From: Hydrogenophaga sp.
GTDB lineage: Bacteria > Pseudomonadota > Gammaproteobacteria > Burkholderiales > Burkholderiaceae_C
Reading direction: 5' to 3'
NCBI GenBank assembly: GCA_016790705.1
Contig: JAEUOT010000019.1
Location: 1 to 64,000, forward strand
Length of the DNA: 64,000 bases
Part shown: positions 41,365-56,291 of the stretch, in pieces
Layout of the letters: the number at the start of each line of letters is the position of its first letter
Position numbering within the stretch: position 1 is the first letter of the stretch
Program-made: the position numbers and the translations under genes
The notes under the pieces: generated by a model
Databases searched by the model: none
Seen by the model: only the letters and a program-made list of their open reading frames with translations
Told to the model about the DNA's origin: nothing

Positions 41365-41380
41365 TGGCACGCTCCATGCA
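41365..41380 (+). promoter_or_regulatory. Sigma-54 (-24/-12) promoter upstream of riboswitch 1
   Basis: TGGCACGCTCCATGCA matches TGGCACG-N4-TTGCA with one mismatch and has the required GG-N10-GC spacing. Transcription would start near 41391, about 50 nt before the aptamer. GCACCA (41277) and TGGTGC (41328) half-sites upstream resemble NtrC half-sites, but a full site is not clear. The rest of 41252-41360 shows no gene. Confidence 0.65.
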
Positions 41381-41437
41381 TTGCCCCCACCAGCATGGAG
41401 AGCGGTCTGCACACAGGGGTGTCAGCGCTCGTGCGTA

Positions 41438-41551
41438 GGTCCACTAGGGTTCCGTCTGCGGCAACGCAGGGTCTGGTCCGAGAGTGGGCCGGCCTCATCG
41501 CAGGCTCCACGGAGGGACAAAAGCCCGGGAGAACGACGTCAGATCGTCTCT
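41438..41551 (+). ncRNA. ykkC/guanidine-I riboswitch 1 with expression-platform hairpin
   Basis: The conserved aptamer elements occur in order: CTAGGGTTCCG (41444-41454), GGTCCGAGAG (from 41475), and CACGGAGGGACAAAAGCCCG running into GGGAGAA (to 41532). Between the first two is a short GC hairpin (CTGCGGCAACGCAG). The aptamer's 3' GGAGA can pair with TCTCC at 41548-41552 (with ACGA/TCGT), an alternative hairpin suited to switching. No poly-U tract follows, so control may be translational or Rho-dependent. The downstream gene starts at 41586 behind GGAG. Guanidine-I is favoured over ykkC subtype 2 by sequence and by the transporter gene. Confidence 0.88.
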
Positions 41552-41585
41552 CCTGCGCCCATCCCTCATCAAACGGAGCTTTCCC

Positions 41586-42632
41586 ATGAAACTGGCTGGT
41601 CTCTTCTCCTCTCCCGCAGCGTCCACCGCCTCCTCCTCCTCGTCCCTGCTCGGCAAGCTGTTCAAGCCCGCGCTGGGCGCCGCGCTCTCGCTGGCCACGG
41701 CCGCCGCGATGGCCGCCCCCACCAACATGAAGATCGCCACCGTGGTGTGGATCGGCTACGGCCCGTTCTACGTCGCCGAGTCGCTGGACCTGTTCAAGAA
41801 ATACAACCTCAAGGTCTCGCTGCAGGTCTTCACCGACCCGGCCCTGATCCCGCCGGCCATTGCCTCGGGCGCGGTCGACGGCGGCATGCTGACCTACGAC
41901 CAGGTGGTCGGCCAGGTCGCCGCCGGCAAGAGCATGAAGGTGGTCATGCCCATCGACTACTCCAACGGCGGCGACGCCATCGTGGCCGACGCCTCGATCA
42001 AGTCGGTCAAGGACTTCAAGGGCAAGAAGATCGGCTACAACCCGCTCTCGCCCAGCGACTTCCTGCTGTCCTACGCGCTCAAGGTCAACGGCCTGACCGA
42101 GAAGGACATCAGCCCGGTCAGCATGACGCCCGAAGCCGTGCCGGCCGCCATGGCCTCCGGCCAACTCCCCATCGGCGTGACCTACGAGCCCAGCCTGTCG
42201 CAGGTGCTGGGCCAGGGCGGCGGCAAGAAGTTCAAGGTGGTGTTCTCGTCCAAGGACGCGCCCGGCCTGATCGCCGACGTGCTGGTGTTCGACGACAAGG
42301 CCATCAAGGCCAAGCCGACCGAGATCACCGGCATCATCAAGGCGTACCTCGACGGCATGGCCTACATGAAGGCCAAGCCCGACGACGCGGCCAAGATCAT
42401 CGGCAAGTTCATGGGCGTCTCCGCCAAGGAAGCCAAGGAACAGATGAGCGGCGTCTACAACATCCCGCTGGCCGAGATGCCCAAGGCCTTCCTGCCCGCC
42501 AAGGAAACCACCTCCTATTACGCCAGCGGCGACGTGATCGGCCAGTTGCTCAAGGCCAAGGGCCAGATCAGCGCCGTGCCCGCGACCGAGGCGACGATGG
42601 ACGCCTCGCTGGTCAAGGCCCTGGCCAAGTAA
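41586..42632 (+). CDS. NitT/TauT-family ABC transporter substrate-binding protein
   Basis: A 348-aa periplasmic binding protein with a signal peptide ending AAAMAAP. The mature start NMKIATVVWIGYGPFYVAESLDLFKKYNL is typical of the SsuA/TauA/NrtA group. The PIDYSNGGDAIVAD and GKKIGYNPLSPSDFLL segments line the ligand site in this family. No ATPase or permease gene follows here; an ABC permease of the same family lies behind a second copy of the riboswitch at 63678. Given the guanidine-I leader, guanidine or a guanidino/ureido compound is the likely ligand, an inference only. Confidence 0.88.
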   Translation: MKLAGLFSSPAASTASSSSSLLGKLFKPALGAALSLATAAAMAAPTNMKIATVVWIGYGPFYVAESLDLFKKYNLKVSLQVFTDPALIPPAIASGAVDGGMLTYDQVVGQVAAGKSMKVVMPIDYSNGGDAIVADASIKSVKDFKGKKIGYNPLSPSDFLLSYALKVNGLTEKDISPVSMTPEAVPAAMASGQLPIGVTYEPSLSQVLGQGGGKKFKVVFSSKDAPGLIADVLVFDDKAIKAKPTEITGIIKAYLDGMAYMKAKPDDAAKIIGKFMGVSAKEAKEQMSGVYNIPLAEMPKAFLPAKETTSYYASGDVIGQLLKAKGQISAVPATEATMDASLVKALAK

Positions 42633-42654
42633 GGCAGGAACGCCAGAAAGGTTC

Positions 42655-43671
42655 ATGGCCATGCCCGCCCTGTTCCGGCACGCCGACGGCGCGCTGCCCA
42701 ACACGCTCGCCCTCGCAGTGACCGTGCTGGGCTGGCCGGCCGGCATCTGGATGCTCGGCCAGAGCGCCTGGTGGCTCAACGCCGCCGGTGTGCTGCTGGT
42801 CGCGCTCACCCTCACCTGGTCGGCCTACTTCATCCACGAGTTCGCCCACCAGGCCATCTTCCGCACGCCGCAGGCCAACGAGCGCTGGGGCAAGCTGATG
42901 ACCTGGATCAACGGCAGTTGCTACGCCAGCCTCGACGACCTGCGGCGCAAGCACATGCGCCACCACATCGAGCGCGCCGACGTGATCACCTTCGACCACC
43001 AGGCCTTCCTGCGCGCGCACCCGCTGGTGCGCCGCGTGGTGCTGGCGCTGGAGTGGCTGCACATCCCGGCGGTCGAGTTCGTGATGCGCGGCTTCGTCGT
43101 CGCGCTGCCCTTCATGGACGAGCGCAAGAAGGCCGCGCGCGGTCGCATCATCGGCGTCGCCATCGTGCGGCTCTCGGCCTGGGCGTTGATTGCGTGGTGG
43201 TCGCCCAAGGCCTTCGCGCTCTACGCGCTGGCCTATCTGCTGTTCGTGCACCTGCTGCGGTTCGCCGACTGCTTCCAGCACACCTACGACGCGTACCCGA
43301 TCCTGGACGAGACGCCGATCCCGCAGGACAAGGTCCGCGACCGGGTCTACGAGCAGGCCAACACCTACAGCGATGTGGTCGGGCTGGACGCGAAATGGCT
43401 CAACCTGGTGTGGCTCAACTTCGGTTTCCACAACGCACACCACGAGCGGCCGGTCGCACCCTGGCACCAGTTGCCGGCGCTGCACCGCCAGCTCTACGCC
43501 GACCAGAGCCCGCAGGTGGTGACCGTGGGTGAACTGCTGCGCGCCTACCACCGCCACCGCGTCACCCGCGTGCTCGCCAAGGACTACGGCGAAGTGCTGC
43601 CACCGGGCACACCGCACCGGGCCGACGGCTTCATCGGGGCCGTGGGCGTGTCCTTCCTGACGGCGGTGTGA
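42655..43671 (+). CDS. Membrane fatty acid desaturase/hydroxylase-like di-iron enzyme
   Basis: A 338-aa membrane protein with the three His boxes of the FADS superfamily: HEFAH (61-65), HMRHH (100-104) and HNAHH (259-263), plus His209 in FADCFQHTYD. Four or more hydrophobic segments lie around them. Members desaturate or hydroxylate alkyl chains with O2. Its place in a guanidine-riboswitch operon is unusual. An N-alkyl hydroxylase acting on the imported compound is a reasonable inference; lipid desaturation is the alternative. It follows the binding-protein gene by 22 bp and overlaps the next gene by 4 bp (GTGA). Confidence 0.82.
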   Translation: MAMPALFRHADGALPNTLALAVTVLGWPAGIWMLGQSAWWLNAAGVLLVALTLTWSAYFIHEFAHQAIFRTPQANERWGKLMTWINGSCYASLDDLRRKHMRHHIERADVITFDHQAFLRAHPLVRRVVLALEWLHIPAVEFVMRGFVVALPFMDERKKAARGRIIGVAIVRLSAWALIAWWSPKAFALYALAYLLFVHLLRFADCFQHTYDAYPILDETPIPQDKVRDRVYEQANTYSDVVGLDAKWLNLVWLNFGFHNAHHERPVAPWHQLPALHRQLYADQSPQVVTVGELLRAYHRHRVTRVLAKDYGEVLPPGTPHRADGFIGAVGVSFLTAV

Positions 43672-44462
43672 GCGTGCTGCGGTATGGCCTGGAGGGCCGC
43701 ACGGTGCTCATCACCGGCGCGGCCGGAGGCATCGGGCAGGCGCTGTCGCGGGCCTTTGCTGCGCAGGGCGCTCGCCTGATGCTGCTGGACCGCACGGCCG
43801 CGCCGCTGCAGGCGCTGGCGGACCAGCTCCAGGCGCAAGGCGCCGAGGTGCAGGCCGTGGTCTGCGAGCTCGGCGACGACGCCAGCGTGGCCGCCGTCGC
43901 GACGCAGGTGGACGCGCGTTGGGGCCGGCTGGACGTGCTGCTGCACAACGCCGGCACCGAATACCCGACGCCCGTCGACGACCCGTCGGCCGACGCCAAC
44001 GTGCGTTGGGCCGGTCTGCTGGACAACAACGTCAGCGGCATGTGGCGGCTCACGCGCGCGCTGCTGCCGTATCTGCCGCGCGGCGCGAGCGTGATCCACC
44101 AGTCGTCGATCTGGGGCCGCATCGGCGTGGCGGGTTTCTCGGCCTACAGCGCGAGCAAACACGCGGTGGTCGGCCTCACGCGTTCGCTGGCGCTCGAACT
44201 CGGCCCACGCGGCATCCGCGTCAACGCGGTCTGCCCCGGCTGGGTGCGCACCGCCGCGGCGATGCGCTCGCTCGCCGCCATGGCGCAGGAACAAGGCAAA
44301 AGCGAAGCCGAGGTCGAGCGCGAGATCCTGTCGCGCCAGGCGGTGCCGGTGATGCTCACGCCCGAGGACCTGGCCGACACCTTTCTGTTCCTGGCCAGCG
44401 ACGGTTCGGCCGCACTCACCGGTCAGTGCCTGTCGCCCAGCCACGGCGAGGTGATGCTGTGA
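43668..44462 (+). CDS. SDR-family oxidoreductase 1 of the riboswitch operon
   Basis: A 264-aa short-chain dehydrogenase beginning at GTG, overlapping the previous stop. Motifs are TGAAGGIGQ, HNAGTE, the catalytic Ser in VIHQSSIWGRIG and YSASK. The C-terminus is normal. It could oxidise an alcohol produced by the preceding hydroxylase. The stop overlaps the GTG start of the second SDR. Confidence 0.87.
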   Translation: MSVLRYGLEGRTVLITGAAGGIGQALSRAFAAQGARLMLLDRTAAPLQALADQLQAQGAEVQAVVCELGDDASVAAVATQVDARWGRLDVLLHNAGTEYPTPVDDPSADANVRWAGLLDNNVSGMWRLTRALLPYLPRGASVIHQSSIWGRIGVAGFSAYSASKHAVVGLTRSLALELGPRGIRVNAVCPGWVRTAAAMRSLAAMAQEQGKSEAEVEREILSRQAVPVMLTPEDLADTFLFLASDGSAALTGQCLSPSHGEVML

Positions 44463-45208
44463 CGCCCGCGATGTCCCTGCAGGGCCGCACGACGCTCATC
44501 ACCGGCGCGGCCACCGGCATCGGCCGAGCGACGGCGCTGCTGTTCGCGCAGGCCGGCGCGCGTGTGGTGATCAACCACTGGCGGCAAAGCGCTGAGGCGC
44601 AGGCGCTGGTGGACCAGATCCGTGCGGCTGGCGGCGAGGCGCTGGCGGCTGAGGCCGACGTGAGCAACGCCGGCGCGGTGCAGGCCATGGCCGAGCAGAT
44701 CGGCCCGGTCGACGTGCTGGTCAACAACGCCGGCATCATCCAGGAGAAGTCGTTTCTGGAGACCACCGAGGCCGACTGGGACCGCATGCTGGGCGTCGAC
44801 CTCAAGGCCGTGTTCCTGGTCTGCCGCGCGTTCATCCCCGGCATGCTCGACAAGGGCCAGGGCGCCATCGTCAACATCGCCTCCGACCTCGGCATCCTCG
44901 GCCGCGAACGCTACGCGCCCTACTGCGCGGCCAAGGCCGGCGTGATCGGCCTGACCAAGTCGCTGGCGCGTGAATTCGCGCCGCAGCAGATCCGCGTCAA
45001 CGCCATCGCGCCCGGCCCGGTCGCCACCGCGATGGTCTCGCTCGAACACATGAGCGCCGAGTGGGTCGAGAAGGAGCTCGCGATCCCGCAGCACCGGCTC
45101 GGTGCGCCCGAAGACATCGCCGCCACCGCGCTGTTCCTGGCCAGCGACCTCTCGGGCTTCTACACCGGCCAGGTGCTCGGCCCCAACGGCGGCTCCGTCA
45201 TGCCCTGA
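44459..45208 (+). CDS. SDR-family oxidoreductase 2 of the riboswitch operon
   Basis: A 249-aa short-chain dehydrogenase of the FabG-like type. Motifs are TGAATGIGRA, NNAGIIQ, the catalytic Ser in VNIASDLGILG and YCAAK; the C-terminal GQVLGPNGGSVMP is usual for the family. The GTG start overlapping the previous stop is chosen because every other junction in this operon shows the same style; an ATG four codons later is possible. Two adjacent SDRs suggest two sequential oxidations or different stereochemistry. Confidence 0.86.
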   Translation: MTPAMSLQGRTTLITGAATGIGRATALLFAQAGARVVINHWRQSAEAQALVDQIRAAGGEALAAEADVSNAGAVQAMAEQIGPVDVLVNNAGIIQEKSFLETTEADWDRMLGVDLKAVFLVCRAFIPGMLDKGQGAIVNIASDLGILGRERYAPYCAAKAGVIGLTKSLAREFAPQQIRVNAIAPGPVATAMVSLEHMSAEWVEKELAIPQHRLGAPEDIAATALFLASDLSGFYTGQVLGPNGGSVMP

Positions 45209-45218
45209 ACGCTTCCCG

Positions 45219-46154
45219 ATGAACCTGCTGCCCGCGCAACCCACCGACCGCGTCGCCACCGGCGTGCTGCTGTTCTCCGCCTCGCTCTGGGGCCTGTCGT
45301 GGCTGCCGCTGAAGTGGTTCATCGCGCAGGGCCTGAGCGGTCCGCTGGTCTCGCTGTGCACCTACGGCGCCGTGGGGGTGCTGGCGGTGTGGTTGCTCTG
45401 GCGCGACCGCGCGTCCTGGCGCGCACAGTGGGCGCTGGTGCTGGCGCTCACGCTGGTGGGCGGCTGGGCCAACACCTCGTTCGTCAACGCCCTCATGCGG
45501 GGCGACGTCGTGCGGGTGATGTTCCTGTTCTACCTCTCGCCGGTGTGGTCGGTGCTGGGCGGCTGGCTGTTTCTGAAGGAGCGCATTCCGCCCACGCGCT
45601 GGGCTGCGGTGGTCGCGGCCATCGTCGGGCTGTGGCTGGTGCTCGGCGGGCCGGGGATGGCGGCCGGCGAGGCGCTGGCCTTCACCTGGGTCGACGCGCT
45701 CGCGCTCTCGGCCGGCTTCGCCTTCGCGGCCAATAACGTGATCGCCCGCGCGGCCCACGCGGTGCCGCTGCGCACCAAGACCTTCTGCGTCTTCATCGGC
45801 TGCGGCCTGCTCTCGGCGCTGGCCAGCGGGCTCACCGGCCAGACGCTGCCGGCGATGTCCGGCCTGGTGGTGCTGGCGCTGCTGGCCTATGGCTTTGTCT
45901 GGATGCTGCTGGCCACGGTGACCTGGCAGTACGGCGTGAGCCATCTGGAGAGCAGTCGCGCCGGCGTGATCCTGCTGGCCGAGCTGGTGGTGTCGGTGGG
46001 CACGGCGCTTGCATTCGGTGGCGAGCGTCTGACGCCCATGGGCTGGGCCGGCGGCGCGCTGATCGCGTTCGCCGCGCTGGCCGAAGCCCTGGCCAGTCCC
46101 GCAGAAGAGACAAGGTCCGCATCCGTTCCCGTCACCGGAGTCCGCACGCCATGA
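45219..46154 (+). CDS. DMT-superfamily (EamA) transporter
   Basis: A 311-aa membrane protein with about ten hydrophobic segments arranged as two EamA repeats; FLFYLSPVWSVLGGWLFLKERIPP marks the first and HLESSRAGVILLAELVVSVGTALAF the second. It may export a toxic intermediate or import substrate. Guanidine exporters under guanidine riboswitches are usually the small SMR type (SugE/Gdx), so this larger relative is notable. It overlaps the creatininase start by 4 bp. Confidence 0.82.
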   Translation: MNLLPAQPTDRVATGVLLFSASLWGLSWLPLKWFIAQGLSGPLVSLCTYGAVGVLAVWLLWRDRASWRAQWALVLALTLVGGWANTSFVNALMRGDVVRVMFLFYLSPVWSVLGGWLFLKERIPPTRWAAVVAAIVGLWLVLGGPGMAAGEALAFTWVDALALSAGFAFAANNVIARAAHAVPLRTKTFCVFIGCGLLSALASGLTGQTLPAMSGLVVLALLAYGFVWMLLATVTWQYGVSHLESSRAGVILLAELVVSVGTALAFGGERLTPMGWAGGALIAFAALAEALASPAEETRSASVPVTGVRTP

Positions 46155-46957
46155 ATTCCCCCGCCACCGCATCCGGCACCGTCTGGATGAACCAGTTGTC
46201 CTGGGTCGACTACCAGCGGCGCATCCGGACCGAAAAGCCGCCCGTGCTGCTGCCGGTCGGCGCGCTGGAGCAACACGGCCCGCACCTGCCGCTGGGCACC
46301 GACGGCCTGCTGGCCAGCGCCGTCGCCGCCGACACCGCCGCACGCGTCGGCGGCCTGGTCGCGCCCACGCTGAGCTACGGCTACAAGTCGCAGCCCAAGT
46401 GCGGCGGCGGGCAGCACTTCTGCGGCACCACCAGCGTCGACGCCGCCACGCTGATCGGCCAGGTGCGCGACGCGGTGCGCGAGTTCGCGCGCCACGGCGT
46501 GGACAAGCTGGTCGTCGTCAACGGCCACTACGAAAACCAGTGGTTCCTGATCGAAGGCATCGACCTCGGTTTGCGCGATGCGAAGGCGGTCGACCCGGCC
46601 TGCGCGTTGCAGGTGATGCGGCTGGAGTACTGGGACTTCATGACGCCCGAGACGCTGGGCGACGTGTTCCCCGACGGCTTCCCTGGCTTCGCGCTGGAGC
46701 ACGCGGCCGTGCTGGAGACCTCGATGATGCTGCACCACCACCCGTCGCTGGTGCGCATGGACCTGCTGCCCGACGACGGCCCGGCCGACTTCCCGCCCTA
46801 CGACATGTACCCGTCGCGCACCGACTGGGTGCCGCCCTCGGGCGTGCTCTCGTCGGCCAAGGGCTCCGACGCCGCCAAAGGCAAGCTGCTTGCCGACGAG
46901 GTCGCGCGTCGCATGGCCGAGGCCATCACCACCGGGTTCACCCGGCCAGTGGCATGA
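46151..46957 (+). CDS. Creatininase (creatinine amidohydrolase) family protein
   Basis: A 268-aa binuclear-metal amidohydrolase that closely resembles Pseudomonas creatininase along its length: GALEQHGPHLPLGTD, YGYKSQPKCGGGQHFCGTTS, VVNGHYEN, and SSAKGSDAAKG. Expected metal ligands are Glu40, His42, Asp51, His126 and Glu128; a likely catalytic His is 184. The position corresponding to a substrate-packing Trp in the Pseudomonas enzyme (from memory, Trp174) is Phe180. It should open a lactam ring, for example creatinine to creatine. No creatinase gene is in view. ATGA overlaps occur on both sides. Confidence 0.86.
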   Translation: MNSPATASGTVWMNQLSWVDYQRRIRTEKPPVLLPVGALEQHGPHLPLGTDGLLASAVAADTAARVGGLVAPTLSYGYKSQPKCGGGQHFCGTTSVDAATLIGQVRDAVREFARHGVDKLVVVNGHYENQWFLIEGIDLGLRDAKAVDPACALQVMRLEYWDFMTPETLGDVFPDGFPGFALEHAAVLETSMMLHHHPSLVRMDLLPDDGPADFPPYDMYPSRTDWVPPSGVLSSAKGSDAAKGKLLADEVARRMAEAITTGFTRPVA

Positions 46958-47622
46958 ACACGCTTCCCGTTTTCGACCCCGCGCTGACGGCGCTGATCGT
47001 CATCGACATGCAGCGCGACTTCTGCAGCCCCGGCGGCTACGCCCAGCAGGCCGGGCTGGACATCGGGCCGATGCAGGCCGTGGTGCCCAAGGTGCAGCGC
47101 CTGCTGGCCGCCGCGCGTGCCGCCGGCCTGATGGTGGTGCACACGCGCGAAGGCCATTTGCCCGACCTGTCGGACTGCCCGCCCGCCAAGCTCGCGCGCA
47201 GCGTCGCGGCCGGAGCACCCATCGGCAGCGCCGGCCCGCTGGGGCGCCTGCTGGTGCGCGGCGAACAGGGCCACGATTTCGTGCCCTCGCTGCGCCCGCT
47301 GGCGAGCGAACACGTGATCGACAAGCCCGGCTACGGCGCCTTCCACAAGACCACGCTCGGCCCGGTGATGGCCGCCTTCGGCATCCGCCAGCTCATCCTC
47401 TGCGGCGTGACCGCCGAGGTCTGTGTGCACTCCACGCTGCGCGAAGCGGTCGACCGCGGCTTCGTCTGCACCACGGTGAGCGACGCGACCGCTGCCAGCC
47501 AGCCCGAACTGCACGCGCCCGCGATGGCGATGATCGGTGTCGAAGGCGGCATCTTCGGCCGCGTCTGCTGCACCGACGAGGTCGTCGCCGCACTGCAACC
47601 GCCGCAGGCGCTGGCCGCATGA
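46954..47622 (+). CDS. Isochorismatase-family amidohydrolase, biuret-hydrolase (BiuH/RutB)-like
   Basis: A 222-aa cysteine hydrolase. The triad is Asp18 in VIDMQRDF, Lys124 in IDKPGYGAF and Cys157 in CGVTAEVCVHST, with the non-proline cis-peptide before the Cys. The KPGYGAF motif and the final GVEGGIFGRVCCTDEV strand resemble biuret amidohydrolase. N-carbamoylsarcosine amidase and ureidoacrylate hydrolase belong to the same family. It probably releases ammonia or carbamate from a ureido or carbamoyl intermediate, matching the nitrogen theme of the operon. Confidence 0.85.
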   Translation: MNTLPVFDPALTALIVIDMQRDFCSPGGYAQQAGLDIGPMQAVVPKVQRLLAAARAAGLMVVHTREGHLPDLSDCPPAKLARSVAAGAPIGSAGPLGRLLVRGEQGHDFVPSLRPLASEHVIDKPGYGAFHKTTLGPVMAAFGIRQLILCGVTAEVCVHSTLREAVDRGFVCTTVSDATAASQPELHAPAMAMIGVEGGIFGRVCCTDEVVAALQPPQALAA

Positions 47623-48362
47623 ACCCGGTGCCCGACCGCTACCACGGCGTGTGGATGCGCACGCTGCTGGAGACGCCCGAGGGCCGCGACACCACGACCT
47701 GGGTGCGCTGGCTGCAGACCGGCCTCTGGCACGGTGACCTGCGCGTGCCCGCCGACGCCGACCGCGACACCGCCCAGGGCCTCGCGCGGCAACAGGGCTT
47801 CGCCGGCACCACCGCCATCACCCGCCCGGACCCGGCGCAGCCCGAGGTCTGCGCCTGGCAGCGCACGATCGACTTCCAGCCGCCGCGCAGCACGCCCGAC
47901 GAAGGCCACATGGTGTTCGAGACGCCGGACCGCGTGATCGAGACCGGCCTCCACGGCCGCTATCTGGAGGTCTGGGAGCGCCTGCCGGGTTCGCTGGGCC
48001 GCCGCATCGCGCTCGCGGGCATGGACGCGGACGGCCAGCCCACGGACGAACGCCTGCTGGTGGCCGGGGACTGGCTGATGTACCTGCACCCGCGCACGGC
48101 CGCCTGGCCAGAAGGCACGGCGCCCGACCAGACCCTGTCCGAGGTGGTGCAGCGCCACCCCGAGGCGGCCGACGCCCTGCTGGATTTCCCGATCAGCTTC
48201 GGGCGTTTCGAACACGGTGTGTGGACGGTCGAGCGCGCGACCCGGCCCGCGCTCGAAGGCCAGACCCTGCCCTGCGCCCTGCACCGGCTCGATGCCCTGC
48301 GCGCCCGGATCGACCGGGGGCCGCTGGCGGGCGACTGGCTGGTGCTGGAGTGGAGCCATTGA
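47619..48362 (+). CDS. Last gene of the riboswitch operon; unknown, lipocalin-like all-beta protein
   Basis: A 247-aa cytosolic-looking protein with no signal peptide and no family I can name. The pattern of alternating short strands (HGVWMRTLLE..., TTWVRWLQTGLWHGDLRVP, EVCAWQRTIDFQPPR, HMVFETPDRVIETG, GDWLMYLHPR, SFGRFEHGVWTVERAT) suggests a beta-barrel or lipocalin-like fold with many Trp. It overlaps the hydrolase stop by 4 bp and ends the operon. Presence in a tightly coupled catabolic operon suggests an enzyme or a substrate-binding accessory. Confidence 0.7.
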   Translation: MNPVPDRYHGVWMRTLLETPEGRDTTTWVRWLQTGLWHGDLRVPADADRDTAQGLARQQGFAGTTAITRPDPAQPEVCAWQRTIDFQPPRSTPDEGHMVFETPDRVIETGLHGRYLEVWERLPGSLGRRIALAGMDADGQPTDERLLVAGDWLMYLHPRTAAWPEGTAPDQTLSEVVQRHPEAADALLDFPISFGRFEHGVWTVERATRPALEGQTLPCALHRLDALRARIDRGPLAGDWLVLEWSH

Positions 48363-48477: not shown

Positions 48478-49158
48478 TCAGCGGATGTCGGTCGGCGTGG
48501 CGGAAAGCGAGAGCGCGAAGCGGCCGTGCACCGGCCCGGGCGCGGCGCCGAGGGCGGTCAGCGCGCCCTCCGACAGTTCCGCCGCCGCCAGCGCATCGAG
48601 CGCCGCCGCCTCGTAGCCGCACACCACCAGCACCCAGTCGGCCGCGCGGTCGCCGCCGCGGATCTTCTGCTCGGTGGTCTGGGCGATGGCCGGGGTTTCG
48701 TGGCGCAGCAGATGGGCGCCGGCGAGGCCGGGCCGGCGCACCCAGTCGGCCATGCGCTCGGCCAGTGCGGCACGCAGCGCGTCGGCCTGTCCGTCCGACG
48801 GCGACAGCCGCAGCGTGAGCGCCTGTCGCGCCACGCTGGAACCGCGACTCGCCAGCACATGGCATTGCGTGCGCACCATGTGCCGGTGGTGCGGCATCAG
48901 CTGGGTCGACCAGGGCGAGGGCGCGTTGAGCGACGCGAGGTAGGCGGGCGAGGACACGACCGCGTGCTCGGTCAGCTCGTACATCACGAAGACGCCTTCG
49001 CCGCCGTCCGCGCTGGTCCAGCGCGTGGCGCGCAGGAAGCCTGGGATGGCTAGGCGCTCGGGGAAATGTTCGTGCGAATGCCAGTGTTCGAACTCGGCCC
49101 GCATCTCGGGGGCCATGTCCCACCACATCGCCAGGCAGGCTGTGCCAAGAACCGACAT
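48478..49158 (-). CDS. Dimeric alpha/beta-barrel-like (EthD/DUF4286-type) protein
   Basis: A 226-aa protein with two likely ferredoxin-like halves. The first contains the EFEHWHSHEHFPERLAIPGFLRATRW pattern typical of EthD/Dabb-type proteins (only part quoted as HWHSHEHFPERL). The function is unknown; such domains bind small aromatic or carbonyl compounds. It converges on the riboswitch operon and lies downstream of eutBC in the same direction, 52 bp after eutC. Confidence 0.65.
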   Translation of the reverse strand: MSVLGTACLAMWWDMAPEMRAEFEHWHSHEHFPERLAIPGFLRATRWTSADGGEGVFVMYELTEHAVVSSPAYLASLNAPSPWSTQLMPHHRHMVRTQCHVLASRGSSVARQALTLRLSPSDGQADALRAALAERMADWVRRPGLAGAHLLRHETPAIAQTTEQKIRGGDRAADWVLVVCGYEAAALDALAAAELSEGALTALGAAPGPVHGRFALSLSATPTDIR

Positions 49159-49210
49159 GTTGCGCTCCGTGTTGTGTGCTCCGGCGCAGCATGCCAGAAC
49201 CGGCGGCGCA

Positions 49211-50053
49211 TCAGGGCCCGAGCAGGAAATTGCGCGACGGGTCGTTGCCGCTGCCGAGCGCTGCGGCCGCGTCGTCGGTGTCGTCCTTCAGGCCCACGCC
49301 GCTGATCCGCCCGGTGCGCGCCGCGCCCAGCAGGTGCACCAGCTTGGCCGCCGCCGCCTCGATCGCCAGACCCGCTGGCCGTACGTTGGAAATGCAGTTG
49401 CGGTTCGCGTCGGTCAGGCCCGGTTGCGGGTTCCAGGTCAGGTACAGGCCCAGGCTGTCGGGCGAACTCAGCCCCGGGCGTTCGCCGATCAGCACCACCA
49501 CGCAGCGCGCCTTCAACCCCGCGCCCGCCTCGTCGCCGACCGCGACGCGCGCCTGCTCCACGACCGCGACCGGCCCGATGGACCAGGGCTGTGCATCCGC
49601 CTGCAGGCGTTGCACCGTGGCGGCGATCAGCGGCACGGCGTTCTGGTGGATCGCCAGCGCCGACAGCCCGTCGCCGACCACGAAGACCAGGTCGACCTGT
49701 GCGCTGGGGCGTTGCTGCAACAGCGCGCGCGAGGCTTCGTCGAGCCTGCGCCCGAGGTCCGGTCGCTGCAGGTAGGTCGCGCGGTCGGCGGCGGCGCTGT
49801 GCAGCCGCACCGCGTCCAGGCCCAGCGCCTGCACGCCGGCCGCCACGCCATGCGCGTCGAACGGCAGGTGCACGGCGTCGCGGGCCATCGCGTGCGCGAG
49901 CTGGAACGCCAGGTGCGGCGCGGTGGGCAGGCTGTGGCCGGCGCGACCGAGGGCGATGCGCGCGTCGGTGAAGCGGCGCAGCGTGCCCCAGCCCGCCGGG
50001 GTGACGTGCGGGACGACGTCGGGATGGGTCAGCGGCTTCAGTGGGTCGCTCAT
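49211..50053 (-). CDS. eutC: Ethanolamine ammonia-lyase small subunit
   Basis: A 280-aa EutC subunit. Family segments are LRRFTDARIALGRAG, VDLVFVVGDGLSALAIHQNA, VVVLIGERPGLSSPDSLGLYLTW and CISNVRPAGL. Together with EutB it forms the adenosylcobalamin enzyme converting ethanolamine to acetaldehyde and ammonia. It overlaps eutB by 4 bp (ATGA). No eut microcompartment, aldehyde dehydrogenase or EutA reactivase gene is in view. Confidence 0.93.
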   Translation of the reverse strand: MSDPLKPLTHPDVVPHVTPAGWGTLRRFTDARIALGRAGHSLPTAPHLAFQLAHAMARDAVHLPFDAHGVAAGVQALGLDAVRLHSAAADRATYLQRPDLGRRLDEASRALLQQRPSAQVDLVFVVGDGLSALAIHQNAVPLIAATVQRLQADAQPWSIGPVAVVEQARVAVGDEAGAGLKARCVVVLIGERPGLSSPDSLGLYLTWNPQPGLTDANRNCISNVRPAGLAIEAAAAKLVHLLGAARTGRISGVGLKDDTDDAAAALGSGNDPSRNFLLGP

Positions 50054-51462
50054 GCCGACTCCAGCCGCGCCAGCACCGGCGCAAAACCGTCGGGCAGGGC
50101 GCGCGTCAGGCGCGAGCCTTCGCCCGGCTCGAACACGCCCATCTTCTGCAGCCAGGCCTCGAACTCGGGCGACGCCCGCAGGCCCAGCAGGTCGCGCAAC
50201 ACCATCGCGTCGTGGAACGAGGTGCTCTGGTAGTTCAGCATGATGTCGTCCGATCCGGGAACGCCCATGATGAAGTTGCAGCCCGCGGCGCCCAGCAGCG
50301 TCATCAGCGCGTCCATGTCGTCGCTGTCGGCCTCGGCGTGGTTGGTGTAGCAGATGTCGCAGCCCATGGGCACGCCCAGCAGCTTGCCGCAGAAGTGGTC
50401 TTCGAGGCCGGCGCGGATGATCTGCTTGCCGTCGTACAGGTACTCGGGGCCGATGAAGCCGACCACGGTGTTGACCAGCAGCGGCTTGAAGTGCCGCGCG
50501 ACGGCGTAGGCGCGGGCCTCGATGGTCTGCTGGTCGCAGCCTTCGTTGGCGCCGGCCGACAGCGCGCTGCCCTGGCCGGTCTCGAAATACATGACGTTGT
50601 CGCCGCGCGTTCCATCGTCGAACACCGCACCGCGTTTCAACGACAGCGCCGCCTCGCGCGCCTCGCCCAGCACCGCGAGGTCGATGCCGAAGCTCCTGTT
50701 GGTGCCTTCGGTGCCGCCGATGGACTGGAACACCAGATCGACCGGCGCGCCACGCTCGATCGCCTGGATCGTGTTGGTCACGTGGGTCAGCACGCAGCTT
50801 TGTGTCGGGATGCCGTAGCGGCTGATGACACCGTCGAGCATCTGCAGCAGCCGCACCACCTGCGGCACGTTGTCGGTCGCCGGGTTGATGCCGATCACCG
50901 CGTCGCCGCTGCCCATCAGCAGGCCGTCCAGCAGGCTGGCCGCGATGCCCGAGGCGGCGTCGGTCGGGTGGTTGGGCTGCAGGCGCGTCGCCAGCCGACC
51001 GGCCAGGCCGATGGTGCCGCGAAAGCGCGTGACCACGCGGCACTTGCGCGCGATCAGCGCCAGGTCCTGCAGCCGGCAGATCTTGCTGACCGCCGCCACC
51101 ATCTCGGGCGTGAGCCCGGGCGCCAGCGCCGCCAGCGCCTCGCTGGTCGCGGCCTCGGACAGCAGCCAGTTGCGGAAATCGCCGACCGTGAGGTGCGCCA
51201 CCGGCGCGAAGGCCGCGGCGTCGTGCGTGTCCACGATCAGCCGCGTCACCGCGTCGCCCTCGTAGGGCACCACCGCTTCGTTCAGGAAGCTGCGCAGCGG
51301 CAGCTCGGCCAGCGCCATCTGCGCCGCCATGCGTTCGGCCGCGCTGTTGGCCGCGACCCCCGCCAGCCGGTCGCCCGAGCGCAGCGGCGTGGCGCGCGCC
51401 ATCAGGTCGCGCAGATCGACGAAGGTGTGGCGGTGGCCGTTGACGGTGTGGGCGTGGCGCAT
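50050..51462 (-). CDS. eutB: Ethanolamine ammonia-lyase large subunit
   Basis: A 470-aa EutB subunit with GDAVIGINPATDNV, VDLVFQSIGGTEGTNRSFGI, MYFETGQGSALSAGAN and MGCDICYTNHAEADSDDMD, all characteristic of the radical TIM-barrel subunit. The length is normal. The start (MRHAHTVNGH) lies 100 bp from the divergent metallo-hydrolase. The gene supplies ammonia from ethanolamine, in keeping with the nitrogen-scavenging flavour of the flanks. I see no sigma-54 element for the leftward direction. Confidence 0.94.
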   Translation of the reverse strand: MRHAHTVNGHRHTFVDLRDLMARATPLRSGDRLAGVAANSAAERMAAQMALAELPLRSFLNEAVVPYEGDAVTRLIVDTHDAAAFAPVAHLTVGDFRNWLLSEAATSEALAALAPGLTPEMVAAVSKICRLQDLALIARKCRVVTRFRGTIGLAGRLATRLQPNHPTDAASGIAASLLDGLLMGSGDAVIGINPATDNVPQVVRLLQMLDGVISRYGIPTQSCVLTHVTNTIQAIERGAPVDLVFQSIGGTEGTNRSFGIDLAVLGEAREAALSLKRGAVFDDGTRGDNVMYFETGQGSALSAGANEGCDQQTIEARAYAVARHFKPLLVNTVVGFIGPEYLYDGKQIIRAGLEDHFCGKLLGVPMGCDICYTNHAEADSDDMDALMTLLGAAGCNFIMGVPGSDDIMLNYQSTSFHDAMVLRDLLGLRASPEFEAWLQKMGVFEPGEGSRLTRALPDGFAPVLARLESA

Positions 51463-51513
51463 GGCCGCAGTATCCGGTGACAGCCGAGCGCCTGTCCATG
51501 GGTTTGCACCATC

Positions 51514-51529
51514 GGGCACAAGGCTTGCA
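51514..51529 (+). promoter_or_regulatory. Sigma-54 (-24/-12) promoter of the metallo-hydrolase gene
   Basis: GGGCACAAGGCTTGCA matches TGGCAC-N5-TTGCA with one mismatch (first T) and has GG-N10-GC spacing. The start codon at 51563 lies about 23 nt after the predicted transcription start. A TGCACCA half-site (51505-51511) overlaps the upstream edge. Confidence 0.6.
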
Positions 51530-51562
51530 TGATCCGCGCATGCCCACCCTCCTGCCGTCGCC

Positions 51563-52336
51563 ATGAATTCCCTGCCCGTCCTGTCCGGAGACTGGTTCGA
51601 GTTCCGCTCGCTCGGCGACGGCCTGACGCTCATCACCGAGCCCCACGTCATCCCGCTGCTTCGCTGCAACATCTGGCACATCGCGGGCCGCGACATCGAT
51701 CTGGTGGTCGACACCGGCCTCGGCGTGAGCAGCCTCTACCAGGCCTCGCGCCACCTCTTCGGCCGCCGCGTCGCCGCGCTCGCGACCCATGTCCACCTCG
51801 ACCACGTCGGCGGCCACCACGAGTTCGGCGAATGCTGGTGCCACCGGCTCGAAGCGCCGGGCCTGCGCGGCGCCGACCCGGACTACACGCTGGCCGACTT
51901 CGACCTGCGCAAGGTCGAGATCGACGTGCCCGGCTACGAGACCGGCGGCCCCGCGCTCACCGCCCTGCCCGCGCCCGACTACGAGCTCTCGGCCTGGCAG
52001 ATCCGGCAGGCCACCGTCACGCGCGAACTCGACGACGGCGACACCATCGACCTGGGCAACCGCCACTTCGAGGTGCTGCACCTGCCCGGCCACTCGCCCG
52101 GCAGCATCGGCCTGTGGGAAGCGAAGACCGGCACGCTGTTCTCCGGCGACGCGATCTACGACGGCCCGCTGCTCGACAACCTGCACCACTCCGACCGTGC
52201 GGCCTACGCGCGCACCATGGAGCGGCTGCTGTCGCTGCCGGTGAACGTGGTGCACGCCGGCCACGACCCGAGCTTCGGGCGCGAGCGCCTGCGCGAGCTG
52301 GTGCGGGCCTATCTCGAACGCAACGCCAGCGCCTGA
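51563..52336 (+). CDS. Metallo-beta-lactamase-fold hydrolase
   Basis: A 257-aa MBL-fold protein. The zinc motif is THVHLDHVGGHHEF, and further ligands lie in LHLPGHSPGSIGLW, LFSGDAIYDG and the late HAGHDPSFG. The group includes hydrolases of thioesters, lactones and cyclic amides. It diverges from eutB and has its own sigma-54 promoter, so nitrogen limitation probably induces it. A role in the neighbouring guanidino/ureido pathway (opening a cyclic intermediate) is possible but unproven. Confidence 0.85.
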   Translation: MNSLPVLSGDWFEFRSLGDGLTLITEPHVIPLLRCNIWHIAGRDIDLVVDTGLGVSSLYQASRHLFGRRVAALATHVHLDHVGGHHEFGECWCHRLEAPGLRGADPDYTLADFDLRKVEIDVPGYETGGPALTALPAPDYELSAWQIRQATVTRELDDGDTIDLGNRHFEVLHLPGHSPGSIGLWEAKTGTLFSGDAIYDGPLLDNLHHSDRAAYARTMERLLSLPVNVVHAGHDPSFGRERLRELVRAYLERNASA

Positions 52337-52344
52337 ACGCGCGC

Positions 52345-52578
52345 TCAGGCGGCCGGCATCAACATCGTCTCGCGCGAGCGCAGCGCCTGGGCCAGCAGCG
52401 GGTGCAGCCCTTGTTCGCCGTGCTGGCGGACATGGGCCAGCAGCGTGCGGCGCATGCGCGGCTCCCAGAACTTGCGGATGTGCTGGGCCACACCCTCGAC
52501 CGCTTCCTCGCGGTCGGGCATGGCATCGAAAAAAGTGGCGATGCGGTTCGCCATCTGCACCAGGTGGTCAGCGTCCAT
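52345..52578 (-). CDS. fdsD: Formate dehydrogenase delta subunit
   Basis: A 77-aa protein with LVQMANRIATFFDAMPDREEAVEGVAQHIRKFWEPRMR (quoted here as key block MANRIATFF...KFWEPRMR), matching FdsD, a small subunit needed for assembly or stability of soluble NAD-dependent formate dehydrogenase. It overlaps the end of fdsC by 11 bp and is last in the operon. Confidence 0.9.
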   Translation of the reverse strand: MDADHLVQMANRIATFFDAMPDREEAVEGVAQHIRKFWEPRMRRTLLAHVRQHGEQGLHPLLAQALRSRETMLMPAA

Positions 52579-53413
52579 GGGGTTCCAGGCCGAAGCGTTC
52601 GGGAAAGGTGTAGGCGACGCCGTCGTTGCCGCGCACGAAACCGGCGAGCGCGAGGTTGAGCGATTGCGCCGTGCGCACCGCGAGATCGGTCGGCGCCGAG
52701 ACGGCGGCCAGCGCACCGATGCCCGCCGCCGCGGTCTTCTGGACCATTTCGAAACTGGCGCGGCTGGTGATGGCGACGAAGCCCTCGCGCGGGTTGTCGC
52801 CGCGACGGGTGAGCGCGCCGATCAGCTTGTCCAGCGCGTTGTGGCGCCCGACGTCCTCGCGCACCAGCCGCACCCGGCCCCCGGTGTCGCACCAGGCGGC
52901 GGCGTGGGTGGCCCCGGTCAGTTGCTGCAGGGTCTGGTGCTGCCAGAGGCCGCGCTGGGCCAGGCCGAGCGCGGCGGCGGCGAGCGCGACGGTGGGCGCA
53001 GGCGCCAGCGCGCGCTGCACCTGCGCCAGGCTGTCGGTGCCGCAGAGGCCGCAGCCGGTGCGCCCGGCGAGACTGCGCCGCCGCTGCCTGAGCCCCCATT
53101 CGCATTCCGCCGAGACCTCCAGCCGCAACTCGATCCCGCCGGCCACCGCCTGCTGTTCGATGCCGTAGAGGTCGCGTGGCGAGCCGACCAGGCCCTCGGT
53201 CAGCGCAAAGCCCAGCGCGAAGTCCTCCAGGTCGACCGGGCTGGCGAGCATCACGGCGTGCGAGACGCCGTTGAAGACCAGCGCGACCGGCAGCTCCTGC
53301 GCCAGCAGGTCGGCGCGCGACTGCACCCGTGCGCTGCGCCATTCGGTGACCTGCGCGCCCACGGTGCCCGGGGCGGCGACCGCGGCCTGAAGGGCGGTGT
53401 CCTGCGGGCTCAT
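52568..53413 (-). CDS. fdsC: Formate dehydrogenase sulfurtransferase FdsC/FdhD
   Basis: A 281-aa FdhD-family chaperone that inserts sulfur into the molybdenum-bis-guanine cofactor of formate dehydrogenase. The functional loop is GCGLCGTDSL, with the CXXC-type cysteines. Other family blocks are VEDFALGFALTEGLV (starting L-E-D-F) and VREDVGRHNALDKLIG. It overlaps the end of fdsA by 4 bp and fdsD follows, the order known for fdsGBACD in betaproteobacteria. Confidence 0.92.
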   Translation of the reverse strand: MSPQDTALQAAVAAPGTVGAQVTEWRSARVQSRADLLAQELPVALVFNGVSHAVMLASPVDLEDFALGFALTEGLVGSPRDLYGIEQQAVAGGIELRLEVSAECEWGLRQRRRSLAGRTGCGLCGTDSLAQVQRALAPAPTVALAAAALGLAQRGLWQHQTLQQLTGATHAAAWCDTGGRVRLVREDVGRHNALDKLIGALTRRGDNPREGFVAITSRASFEMVQKTAAAGIGALAAVSAPTDLAVRTAQSLNLALAGFVRGNDGVAYTFPERFGLEPHGR

Positions 53414-56289
53414 CGCGTCACCGCCGCCTCGTCGGCCCGCCCCTGCGCCAGCAGCGCCAACTGCTCGCGGTTGAATGCCTCGTAGCCGCCCTGCCAGTCC
53501 GAGCGCTGCATCACCTTGCTCACCTGCACCGCCGTGACCTTGTATTCGGGGCAGTTGGTGGCCCAGTCGGAGCTGTCGGTGGTGATCACGTTGGCGCCCG
53601 ATTCGGGAAAGTGGAAGGTGGTGTAGACCACGCCGGGCTGCATGCGCTCGCTGACGTCGGCGCGCAGCACGGTCTGGCCGGCGCGGCTCTCGATGCCGAC
53701 CCAGTCGCCATCGGCGATGCCGCGCTCCTGGGCGTCGTGCGGGTGGATCTCCAGCCGGTCCTCCTCGTGCCAACGGCTGTTGGGCGTGCGCCGCGTCTGC
53801 GCGCCGACGTTGTACTGGCTCAGGATGCGGCCGGTGGTCAGCAGGAGCGGGAACTTGCGCGTGACCTTCTCGTCGCTGGCGACGTACTGGGTGTTGAAGA
53901 AGCGGCCCTTGCCGCGCACGAAGCCCTGGGCGTGCATCAGCGCAGTCCCCGCCTCGTCCGTGCCCGCGTTGCAGGGCCACTGCACACTGCCCAGCCGCTC
54001 GATCTTCTCGTAGCTCACGCCGGCGAAGCTCGGCGTCAGCGCCGCGATCTCCTGCATCACCTGCTCGGGGTGCGTGTAGTGCATCGGGTAGCCCAGCGCG
54101 TTCGATAGCCTGACCGTCACCTCCCAGTCGGCCAGCCCCGCCAGCGGCGGCATCACCTGGCGCACCCGGCTGATGCGGCGCTCGGCGTTGGTGAAGGTGC
54201 CGTCCTTCTCCAGGAAGGAGCTGCCCGGCAGCAGCACGTGCGCGTACTTGGCGGTCTCGTTGAGGAAGATGTCCTGCACCACGATGCACTCCATCGCCGA
54301 CAGCGCCGCCGCGACGTGCTGCGTGTTGGGGTCGCTCTGCACGATGTCCTCGCCCTGGCAGTACAGGCCCTTGAAGCTGCCCGAGAGCGCGGCGTCGAAC
54401 ATGTTGGGGATGCGCAGCCCGGGCTCGGGGTCCAGCGTGACGCCCCAGGCGGCCTCGAACTGCGAACGCACCGTGGTGTCGCTGATGTGGCGGTAGCCGG
54501 GCAGCTCGTGCGGGAAGCTGCCCATGTCGCAACTGCCCTGCACATTGTTCTGGCCGCGCAGCGGGTTCACGCCCACGCCCTCGCGCCCGACCATGCCGCA
54601 GGCCATCGCGAGGTTGGCGATGCCGATCACCATGGTCGAGCCCTGCGCGTGTTCGGTCACGCCCAGGCCGTAGTAGATCGCCGAGTTGCCGCCCGTGGCG
54701 TACAGACGCGCGGCGGCGCGCAGCTCCCCGGCCGGCACGCCGGTCACCGCCTCGAAGGCCTCGGGCGAGTTCTCCGGTTTGGCGACGAAGGCGCGCCAGT
54801 CGGCGAAGCTGCTGGGGTCGCAGCGCTCGGTGACGAAGCCCTCGTCGACCAGACCCTCGGTCACGATCACATGCGCCATCGCGGTGATCACCGCGACGTT
54901 GGTGCCGGGCTTGAGCGCGAGGTGGTGCTCGGCGCGGATGTGCGGCGAATCGACCAGCTCGATGCGGCGCGGGTCGATCACGATCAGCTTCGCGCCCTCG
55001 CGCAGGCGCTTCTTCATGCGCGAGGCAAACACCGGGTGCGCGTCGGTCGGGTTGGCGCCGATCACCAGGATCACGTCCGCCTGCTCGACCGACTTGAAGG
55101 TCTGCGTGCCCGCCGAGGTGCCGTAGGTCTGGCCCAGGCCGTAGCCGGTGGGCGAGTGGCAGACGCGGGCGCAGGTGTCGACGTTGTTGGTGCCGAAGGC
55201 CGCGCGCACCAGCTTCTGCACCAGGTAGGTCTCCTCGTTGGTGCAGCGGCTGGAGGTGATGCCGCCGACCGCGTCCTTGCCGTGGCGGGCCTGGATGCGC
55301 TTGAACTCGGACGCGGCGTAGGCGATCGCCTCGTCCCAGCCGACCTCGCGCCAGGGGTCGGTGATGCTGGCGCGGATCATCGGCTTGGTGATGCGGTCCT
55401 TGTGCGTCGCGTAGCCCCAGGCGAAGCGGCCCTTGACGCAGGAGTGGCCCTCGTTGGCCTTGCCGTCCTTCCACGGGACCATGCGCACTACCGTGTTGCC
55501 CTTCATCTCCGCCTTGAAGCCGCAGCCGACACCGCAGTAGGCGCAGGTGGTGACCACGCTGTGCTCGGCCTGGCCCAGCTCGATCACGCTCTTTTCCTGC
55601 AGCGTCGCGGTCGGGCAGGCCTGCACGCAGGCGCCGCAGGAGACGCACTCGCTGTCCATGAAGGGCTGGTCCTGGCCGGGCGAGACGCGGCTGTCGAAGC
55701 CGCGGCCGGAGATCGTCAGCGCGAAAGTGCCCTGGGTCTCCTCGCAGGCGCGCACGCAGCGGTTGCAGACGATGCACTTGCTCGGGTCGTAGCTGAAGTA
55801 GGGGTTGGACTCGTCCTTCTTCGCGTCGCAGTGGTGGGCGCCGGCCGCCGCGCCGACCCCGTAGCGCACGTTGCGCAGCCCGGTGACGCCGGCCATGTCC
55901 TGCAGCTCGCAGTCGCCGTTGGCGCTGCAGGTCAGGCAGTCCAGCGGGTGGTCGCTGATGTAGAGCTCCATCACGCCCTTGCGCAACTGCTGCAGCTTCG
56001 GCGTCTGGGTGCGCACCACCATGCCGGCCTCGGCGGGCGTGGTGCAGCTTGCGGGAAAGCCCTTGCGGCCCTCGACCTCGACCAGGCACAGCCGGCAGGA
56101 GCCGAACGGTTCGAGACTGTCGGTGGCGCAGAGCTTGGGCACGCCGACGCCGGCCTCGGCGGCCGCCCGCATCAGCGAGGTGCCCTCGGGCACGGAGACG
56201 GCCACGCCGTCGATGGTCAGCGAGACCTCGCGCTCCGACACGCGCGCCGGCGTGCCGTAATCGGTTTCGGTGGGGTGGTGGTGGCGCAT
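53410..56289 (-). CDS. fdsA: NAD-dependent formate dehydrogenase alpha subunit (molybdenum)
   Basis: A 959-aa catalytic subunit. The N-terminal [2Fe-2S] domain includes FGSCRLCLVEVEG. NuoG-like cluster motifs follow (CLTCSANGDCELQ), then two [4Fe-4S] ferredoxin motifs (CIVCNRCVRACEE, CVSCGACVQACPT) and CAYCGVGCGF at the start of the molybdopterin domain. The Mo ligand is Cys377 in ARVCHSPTGYG, a cysteine rather than selenocysteine. It oxidises formate and passes electrons to FdsB/FdsG. It is adjacent to fdsB with a 2-bp gap. Confidence 0.95.
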   Translation of the reverse strand: MRHHHPTETDYGTPARVSEREVSLTIDGVAVSVPEGTSLMRAAAEAGVGVPKLCATDSLEPFGSCRLCLVEVEGRKGFPASCTTPAEAGMVVRTQTPKLQQLRKGVMELYISDHPLDCLTCSANGDCELQDMAGVTGLRNVRYGVGAAAGAHHCDAKKDESNPYFSYDPSKCIVCNRCVRACEETQGTFALTISGRGFDSRVSPGQDQPFMDSECVSCGACVQACPTATLQEKSVIELGQAEHSVVTTCAYCGVGCGFKAEMKGNTVVRMVPWKDGKANEGHSCVKGRFAWGYATHKDRITKPMIRASITDPWREVGWDEAIAYAASEFKRIQARHGKDAVGGITSSRCTNEETYLVQKLVRAAFGTNNVDTCARVCHSPTGYGLGQTYGTSAGTQTFKSVEQADVILVIGANPTDAHPVFASRMKKRLREGAKLIVIDPRRIELVDSPHIRAEHHLALKPGTNVAVITAMAHVIVTEGLVDEGFVTERCDPSSFADWRAFVAKPENSPEAFEAVTGVPAGELRAAARLYATGGNSAIYYGLGVTEHAQGSTMVIGIANLAMACGMVGREGVGVNPLRGQNNVQGSCDMGSFPHELPGYRHISDTTVRSQFEAAWGVTLDPEPGLRIPNMFDAALSGSFKGLYCQGEDIVQSDPNTQHVAAALSAMECIVVQDIFLNETAKYAHVLLPGSSFLEKDGTFTNAERRISRVRQVMPPLAGLADWEVTVRLSNALGYPMHYTHPEQVMQEIAALTPSFAGVSYEKIERLGSVQWPCNAGTDEAGTALMHAQGFVRGKGRFFNTQYVASDEKVTRKFPLLLTTGRILSQYNVGAQTRRTPNSRWHEEDRLEIHPHDAQERGIADGDWVGIESRAGQTVLRADVSERMQPGVVYTTFHFPESGANVITTDSSDWATNCPEYKVTAVQVSKVMQRSDWQGGYEAFNREQLALLAQGRADEAAVTR

Positions 56290-56291
56290 GT

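Follow-up and report, generated by a model that had tools for sequence, protein, structure and literature searches.

The window examined here, 64 kb at the start of contig C71 (133.6 kb) of a draft Hydrogenophaga sp. genome (3.75 Mb, 84.75% complete), contains an eight-gene operon headed by a Guanidine-I (ykkC) riboswitch and including a FADS-type membrane di-iron hydroxylase. The probable role of this operon is to free guanidine from a small N-alkylguanidine, with methylguanidine or a close relative of it as the likeliest substrate; the guanidine would then pass to a guanidine carboxylase pathway whose genes begin 15 kb downstream. We give this reading a probability of roughly 0.7, the substrate and the enzyme activities being what we infer. 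The riboswitches, the gene set and its conservation, the co-occurrence with guanidine carboxylase, and the kinships to the lyase MgdL and to guanylurea hydrolase (GuuH) were established computationally.

The riboswitch and operon layout

Eight open reading frames lie on the same strand behind the first riboswitch, from 41586 to 48362 (+):

41433..41533 (+): Guanidine-I (ykkC) riboswitch aptamer; RF00442, 83.9 bits, gathering cut-off 63, E 1.7e-13 over the 64 kb window
41523..41558 (+): predicted hairpin, candidate expression platform, from the RNA fold of 41515-41600
41586..42632 (+): NitT/TauT-type ABC substrate-binding protein; NMT1 PF09084, 1e-25
42655..43671 (+): FADS-type membrane di-iron hydroxylase, proposed alkylguanidine hydroxylase; FA_desaturase PF00487, 2.1e-32
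43668..44462 (+): short-chain dehydrogenase SDR1, GTG start; PF13561, 2.6e-54
44459..45208 (+): short-chain dehydrogenase SDR2, GTG start; PF13561, 2.9e-61
45219..46154 (+): EamA/DMT-family transporter; PF00892, 1.1e-20
46151..46957 (+): creatininase-family amidohydrolase; PF02633, 6.8e-58; TIGR04448, 356.4 bits against a cut-off of 235
46954..47622 (+): isochorismatase-like cysteine hydrolase; PF00857, 1e-41; 59% identical to the pMET-2 guanylurea hydrolase
47619..48362 (+): MgdL-like beta-barrel protein, proposed hemiaminal lyase, with D40/R42; sub-threshold HRI1 match, 20.6 bits against a cut-off of 27

An earlier note, made from the sequence alone, had described a guanidine-I aptamer leading eight co-directional genes, most of them joined by 4-bp overlaps. 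The covariance-model search confirms the aptamer, and five of the seven gene junctions are indeed 4-bp overlaps (two GTGA and three ATGA), the remaining two being gaps of 22 and 10 bp. Pfam and NCBIfam also agree with the families that the note had named, except that the match to biuret hydrolase falls under its model cut-off (248 against 370 bits). Both Guanidine-I aptamers of the window pass the curated RF00442 cut-off of 63 (covariance scores of 83.9 and 84.8 bits) and are predicted guanidine sensors; a scan of the draft genome found no third. The Guanidine-I riboswitch of Vreelandella boliviensis is reported to bind guanidine, and not methylguanidine up to 1 mM (PMC12508155), so the switch here would report released guanidine. 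The predicted hairpin would occupy the 3′-end of the aptamer and is not followed by a U-tract; leader sequence resembling it is found in the 22 leaders examined of the 74 found.

Conservation and linkage to guanidine carboxylase

Among 349 genomes of the family, the Hydrogenophaga genome itself included, the FADS protein has a match at E <= 1e-30 in 15, which span 11 genera. The fourteen other loci (stretches of 8-20 kb, not counting the FADS paralogues L036 and L037) hold orthologues of the window genes, with some losses. L025 retains only the binding protein, FADS, SDR2 and creatininase genes, L026 has those for the binding protein, FADS, DMT, isochorismatase, a metallo-beta-lactamase-fold (MBL) protein and the MgdL-like protein, and L034 lacks the isochorismatase and MgdL-like genes within the examined stretch. 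A Guanidine-I riboswitch lies just upstream of the binding-protein gene in 13 of the fourteen loci, the exception being L025, and Guanidine-II is found in six.

A wider scan, covering 84,980 species genomes and using two peptide patterns derived from aligned FADS proteins, gave 129 relatives, and the best 80 were used as loci. The titles of these best 80 of 129 are all betaproteobacterial or placed only as Proteobacteria/Pseudomonadota. Several genomes are common to this set and the fourteen-locus set, so the two are not independent. With a search model built from 16 aptamers of the fourteen-locus set, a Guanidine-I match is found within 3.5 kb upstream of FADS in 75 of the 80 loci (counting a partial match at the contig edge in L111), and in 70 of the 72 whose upstream sequence exceeds 1500 bases. 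Three of the negative loci (L045, L049 and L101) have fewer than 800 bases of upstream sequence. Orthologues were called up to 7 kb from FADS in the 55 long loci, defined by at least 6.8 kb downstream of the FADS start. The binding protein is present in 54 of these, the MgdL-like protein in 52 (a match in L111, farther than 7 kb from FADS, lies outside this count), the isochorismatase-like protein in 50, SDR2 and creatininase in 47 each, and the MBL protein MBLa in 37. SDR2 and creatininase are strictly paired, both being present in 47 of the 55 and both absent in the other eight. Recurrence of the gene set in other genomes, as the earlier note had expected, is borne out by these upstream switches and recurring sets. 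L111 (1165-10059) holds a copy of the operon with a second FADS gene and several extra binding-protein matches, and L025 contains at 3172-7062 a 1296-residue frame that resembles, by eye, a replicative helicase with intein-like inserts.

In a midpoint-rooted tree of the FADS proteins, the 81 operon proteins, one from the window and 80 from the loci, group together with support of 99/94. Outside this group fall four paralogues, namely L036, L037 and the second copies of L110 and L111; the position of L130 is unsure, with long branches. The nearest relatives of the window protein are those of Hydrogenophaga flava and H. pseudoflava, at 93% identity, with which the tree agrees. The histidine boxes HEFAH (61-65), HMRHH (100-104) and HNAHH (259-263), together with H209, are invariant in 15 aligned rows. 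No guanidine switch was found in the 20 kb searched at the paralogous copies L036 and L037. A search of solved structures with the FADS protein returned chance matches only, and a search of plasmids one distant relative (36%, Gloeothece).

The operon is closely associated with guanidine carboxylase. With the window carboxylase as query (E <= 1e-300), 39 of the 349 family genomes have a match, and all 15 FADS genomes are among them (Fisher p 3e-16, uncorrected for kinship); in two of the 15, G114 and G074, some 60% of the query is matched. Under a permissive tblastn criterion that also counts weak matches, carboxylase-operon genes lie within the fetched stretch in 39 of the 80 loci, and many loci place the FADS set directly beside cgdA-cgdB-gca-atzF. 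In several lineages the gene order is permease, ATPase, cgdA, cgdB, gca, atzF, Guanidine-I, binding protein and FADS; in others the MgdL-like gene is followed by an optional MBLb, Guanidine-I, permease, ATPase and cgdA.

In the window, the carboxylase operon begins at its own riboswitch and extends past the window end, at about 63678-72552 of contig C71:

63484..63610 (+): second Guanidine-I riboswitch, heading the guanidine carboxylase operon; RF00442, 84.8 bits
C71 67000-67046 (L003 7000-7046): Guanidine-II match ahead of the carboxylase gene; 32.4 bits against a cut-off of 32

Its genes encode, in order, a permease, an ATPase, UAAP1, UAAP2 (cgdA/cgdB, in current naming the carboxyguanidine deiminase subunits), the carboxylase and allophanate hydrolase. 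The carboxylase is putatively assigned as guanidine carboxylase from this context, the matched model being urea_carbox (1898 bits); an Asp/Asn residue distinguishes guanidine from urea carboxylases. The earlier note had held that none of the known guanidine-I enzymes is present; with this second switch and its operon close by, and the MgdL-like and GuuH-like proteins within the first, an absence of all relation to known guanidine metabolism is not supported. Neither in the window nor in L046, L047 and L054 is there a binding-protein match between the second switch and the permease, so the binding protein of the FADS operon may serve that importer.

Candidate enzymes, proposed pathway and rival substrates

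The last gene of the operon, which the earlier note had left as an unknown beta-rich protein, is probably a homologue of MgdL, judging from synteny, a D-x-R motif and the fold class of its relatives. MgdL was published in 2025 as an N-(hydroxymethyl)guanidine lyase; it is modelled as a beta-barrel, requires Asp49 and Arg51 to split N-(hydroxymethyl)guanidine, and is reported to be narrow for this substrate (PMC12508155). A profile of 26 copies of the MgdL-like protein, run against 369 genomes of the class, matches seven, two of which are the window genome and a congener. In G518 and G711 the MgdL-like gene lies directly behind that of a DIOX_N/2OG-FeII_Oxy dioxygenase, which in turn comes immediately after gca in G711 and some 0.9 kb beyond it in G518. 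Guanidine-II precedes gca in both, and Guanidine-I is found in G711. This arrangement equals the gene order given for mgdH-mgdL (PMC12508155). The G711 protein has Asp at 49 and Arg at 51, a numbering identical to that of the proven catalytic pair, and the window protein, which aligns with those of G518 and G711 at 35% and 28%, has D40 and R42. In an alignment of the window with 48 of 59 loci, short or incomplete copies having been dropped, H38, D40 and R42 are invariant in all 49 rows and W37 in 48. The AlphaFold2 model of the window protein is nearly all beta (pLDDT 96.7, pTM 0.92), and its sole solved-structure match at E <= 0.001 is yeast HRI1 (3rby, E 4.9e-6, TM 0.59).

An MgdL-like match occurs in 13 of the 14 other FADS genomes, the exception being G151. 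In G587, which belongs to another family, the order is Guanidine-I, FADS, MBLa, MgdL-like gene and DMT. Plasmid searches with the MgdL-like proteins of the window and of L129 gave no match. Variant settings of the gene were also seen. At 10073-19901 of L126 it is followed by DMT, an ABC importer, a creatininase-like gene, type III glutamine synthetase, cgdA, cgdB and gca, and no oxygenase was recognised there. A second MgdL-like gene of G711 (L131, 8557-10384) lies behind a 2-oxoglutarate (2-OG) dioxygenase in two overlapping frames, near an ABC importer and, by eye, a ureohydrolase-like gene. In L092, from a Curvibacter metagenome-assembled genome, the gene (from 15873) has an early in-frame stop, by decay or sequencing error.

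With such a lyase as partner, the best reading of the FADS protein is that it would replace MgdH in hydroxylating the N-alkyl carbon. The substrate would be taken up by the ABC importer, whose binding protein is the first gene of the operon, and FADS would hydroxylate the carbon next to the guanidine nitrogen, giving a fairly stable hemiaminal. The MgdL-like protein could then split this hemiaminal into guanidine and an aldehyde, as its kinship to the proven lyase suggests. An oxygenase and an MgdL-like lyase would be the simplest case, resembling MgdH/MgdL in all but the type of oxygenase. A second branch is suggested by SDR2 and creatininase being strictly paired: an SDR would oxidise the hemiaminal to an N-acylguanidine, from which hydrolysis by the creatininase-family and GuuH-like amidohydrolases would yield guanidine and a carboxylate. 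The general idea of the earlier note, N-alkyl hydroxylation followed by SDR oxidation and amide hydrolysis, is supported, as is the oxidative and hydrolytic character of the gene set. Two genomes are complementary in content: FADS, SDR2, creatininase and gca are present in G151, with no MgdL-like or isochorismatase match genome-wide, and MgdL-like, isochorismatase and gca in G309, with no creatininase match genome-wide; such halves standing alone fit two routes from one intermediate. G309 also holds a FADS paralogue elsewhere (L036), with a 40% SDR2-like neighbour.

Across 204 residues, the isochorismatase-like protein shares 59% identity with a cysteine hydrolase of the P. mendocina plasmid pMET-2, which adjoins a nucleoside deaminase gene; a Nitrosospira plasmid protein is slightly closer (61%). 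The pMET-2 protein fits the assayed guanylurea hydrolase BB_00025, matched by plasmid and by the neighbouring nucleoside deaminase, and that enzyme has very low activity on biuret (PMC9800807). N-acylguanidines resemble guanylurea, so the GuuH-like enzyme could act on them. Biuret was set aside as substrate: the BiuH model NF050097 scores the window protein at 248.2 bits against a cut-off of 370 (the pMET-2 enzyme itself reaches 271), and the nearest assayed kin acts on guanylurea. The counterpoint is that the solved biuret hydrolase 6xjm scores nearly as well. At L028 and L073, in a Polaromonas, the isochorismatase-like gene is split over two frames, by decay or sequencing error.

The creatininase-family protein retains motifs of the P. 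putida enzyme (1j2t) that we take to form the metal site. In the alignment of the window with 59 of 61 loci, the equivalents of Ser78 and Trp174, presumably active-site residues, are replaced in 60 of 60 operon copies, Ser78 by Cys throughout and Trp174 by Phe (56) or Tyr (4). Six plasmid creatininases, examined from 33 matched records, keep Ser in all six and Trp in five (Ile in Salipiger). Both residues are kept in the three that lie beside an M24 creatinase-type gene. A creatininase-family deformylase, BrbF, is on record (PMC9478397).

These residues bear on a creatinine or creatine pathway, in which creatininase would open creatinine, and FADS, SDR and lyase would remove carbon from creatine or act oxidatively on C5 of the ring (chemistry of creatol type), freeing methylguanidine and then guanidine. 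Such a pathway would give work to the extra enzymes, TIGR04448 is well over its cut-off with the metal-site motifs kept, and creatinine is reported as one abiotic source of methylguanidine (PMC12508155). The replacement of both residues in every operon copy, set against their near-complete retention in the six plasmid creatininases examined, argues against it, as does the absence of creatininase from the locus in eight of the 55 long loci and genome-wide in G309; FADS, SDR2 and creatininase with gca alone, as in G151, would be a dead end on the C5 route. The opening of a creatinine lactam, proposed in the earlier note, is therefore not supported, and creatinine was set aside as the default substrate on residue and gene-content evidence; we regard the pathway as improbable. 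The broader inference of a guanidino substrate is supported.

A larger alkylguanidine or guanidino natural product, processed by the same chemistry, overlaps with the preferred reading and deserves more weight, though it still seems rather unlikely. Alkyl chains are the usual substrates of FADS enzymes, two SDRs are present, and an aldehyde closing to a lactol or lactone would explain a lactonase-like MBL protein, MBLa being found in 37 of the 55 long loci. Set against this, MBLa scores far under the cut-offs for AHL lactonase (133 against 375) and 4-pyridoxolactonase (130 against 325), and the MgdL kinship points to a one-carbon hemiaminal. The narrow range of MgdL favours methylguanidine; the surplus of enzymes favours a larger alkylguanidine. 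That the genes serve no guanidine substrate and are merely guanidine-induced, for example under membrane or osmotic stress, we consider very improbable. FADS, SDR and DMT are generic families, but relatedness to MgdL and GuuH, a carboxylase match in all 15 FADS genomes and adjacency to the carboxylase operon argue against it.

Several points weigh against release of guanidine from a small N-alkylguanidine. No FADS enzyme is known to act on a small guanidinium compound, and a route from methylguanidine alone requires fewer enzymes than the operon holds. The kinship to V. boliviensis MgdL is drawn from the synteny, motif and fold class of relatives. MgdL-like genes also occur outside the full context: near gca in G432, where no oxygenase was recognised, and in G560, where 20 kb of sequence held no guanidine genes. 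The isochorismatase-like enzyme scores 222 bits against the biuret hydrolase 6xjm, near its score against the pMET-2 protein. A Guanidine-I match is missing in L061 and L105 despite sufficient sequence upstream, and L097, outside the 55 long loci, has creatininase and SDR1 with no SDR2 match. The wider proposal is of a second, independently evolved guanidine-releasing chemistry, in which FADS would act on a small water-soluble alkylguanidine, the hemiaminal would go to a lyase or to a dehydrogenase and hydrolases, and lineages would keep one branch or both. It is tentative, and we place it slightly below even odds; no such substrate type is known for the FADS superfamily.

Known systems and neighbouring genes

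The closest known system is MgdH/MgdL of V. boliviensis (PMC12508155). Both share Guanidine-I control, Guanidine-II before gca, linkage to cgdA-cgdB-gca-atzF and an ABC importer, and an oxygenase followed by an MgdL-type beta-barrel protein with D-x-R. MgdH is a 2-OG/Fe(II) dioxygenase, whereas the oxygenase here is a FADS membrane di-iron protein. A search of the eight operon proteins, to which the dioxygenase search was confined, gave no DIOX_N/2OG-FeII_Oxy match. The operon adds SDRs, creatininase-family and GuuH-like amidohydrolases, a DMT transporter and often an MBL protein. MgdH/MgdL is from halophiles, the FADS operon from betaproteobacteria.

The pMET-2 guanylurea hydrolase is likewise isochorismatase-like and works upstream of guanidine carboxylase (PMC9800807); it differs in its setting, an ABC transporter/deaminase cluster for which a search of 6.6 kb gave no guanidine switch. 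The P. putida creatininase shares the metal-site motifs of the operon protein and differs at Ser78 and Trp174, and BrbF (PMC9478397) can be likened to it by family only. No creatinase-type gene is present in the operon. On a plasmid of Salipiger sp. CCB-MM3 (L134, 1-6233), an ABC importer, an oxygenase, a creatininase (52%) and SDR1 and SDR2 homologues (44% each) occur together, but the oxygenase is an NtaA/DmoA FMN monooxygenase and no guanidine switch was found in the 8.7 kb searched. The oxidation-hydrolysis module may thus work with another oxygenase.

Open-access literature on guanidine riboswitches with creatininase, desaturase or isochorismatase, and on mgdH/mgdL, gave no account of this operon, most subscription papers lying outside that scope. 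Within it, the pathway can be called undescribed, as the earlier note did, in its FADS version; the MgdL-like, GuuH-like and carboxylase genes tie it to known metabolism. The natural source of guanidine is termed a major gap in a recent review (PMC12186494). Found across scores of betaproteobacterial genomes, this operon family suggests that bacteria are widely able to use alkylguanidines as a nitrogen source, and it names a candidate first enzyme from an unexpected superfamily. It also brings a GuuH-type hydrolase, a creatininase-family clade and an HRI1-like beta-barrel family together in a single testable pathway.

Between the two guanidine operons lie the following:

48478-51714 (-): a gene lacking any NCBIfam match, together with a probable EutC (identified by eye) and the ethanolamine ammonia-lyase EutB
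51563..52336 (+): metallo-beta-lactamase-fold protein MBLb, operon membership uncertain
52359-60053 (-): formate dehydrogenase cluster, in which the gamma subunit passes its model cut-off, and an MFS transporter of lactate or oxalate/formate type

A role in consuming formaldehyde or formate was considered for the formate dehydrogenase and MFS genes (about 52.4-60 kb), which were excluded from the system because they are not found between the operons in five sister loci: tblastn with FdsG, FdsB, MFS and EutB gave no match between MBLb and the permease in L141 and L142 (the nearest sisters), L046, L047 and L054. The insert at 48478-51714 is absent in the nearest sisters and separates the MgdL-like gene from MBLb, which lies directly behind it in sister Hydrogenophaga and is displaced here by eutB and its neighbours on the opposite strand.

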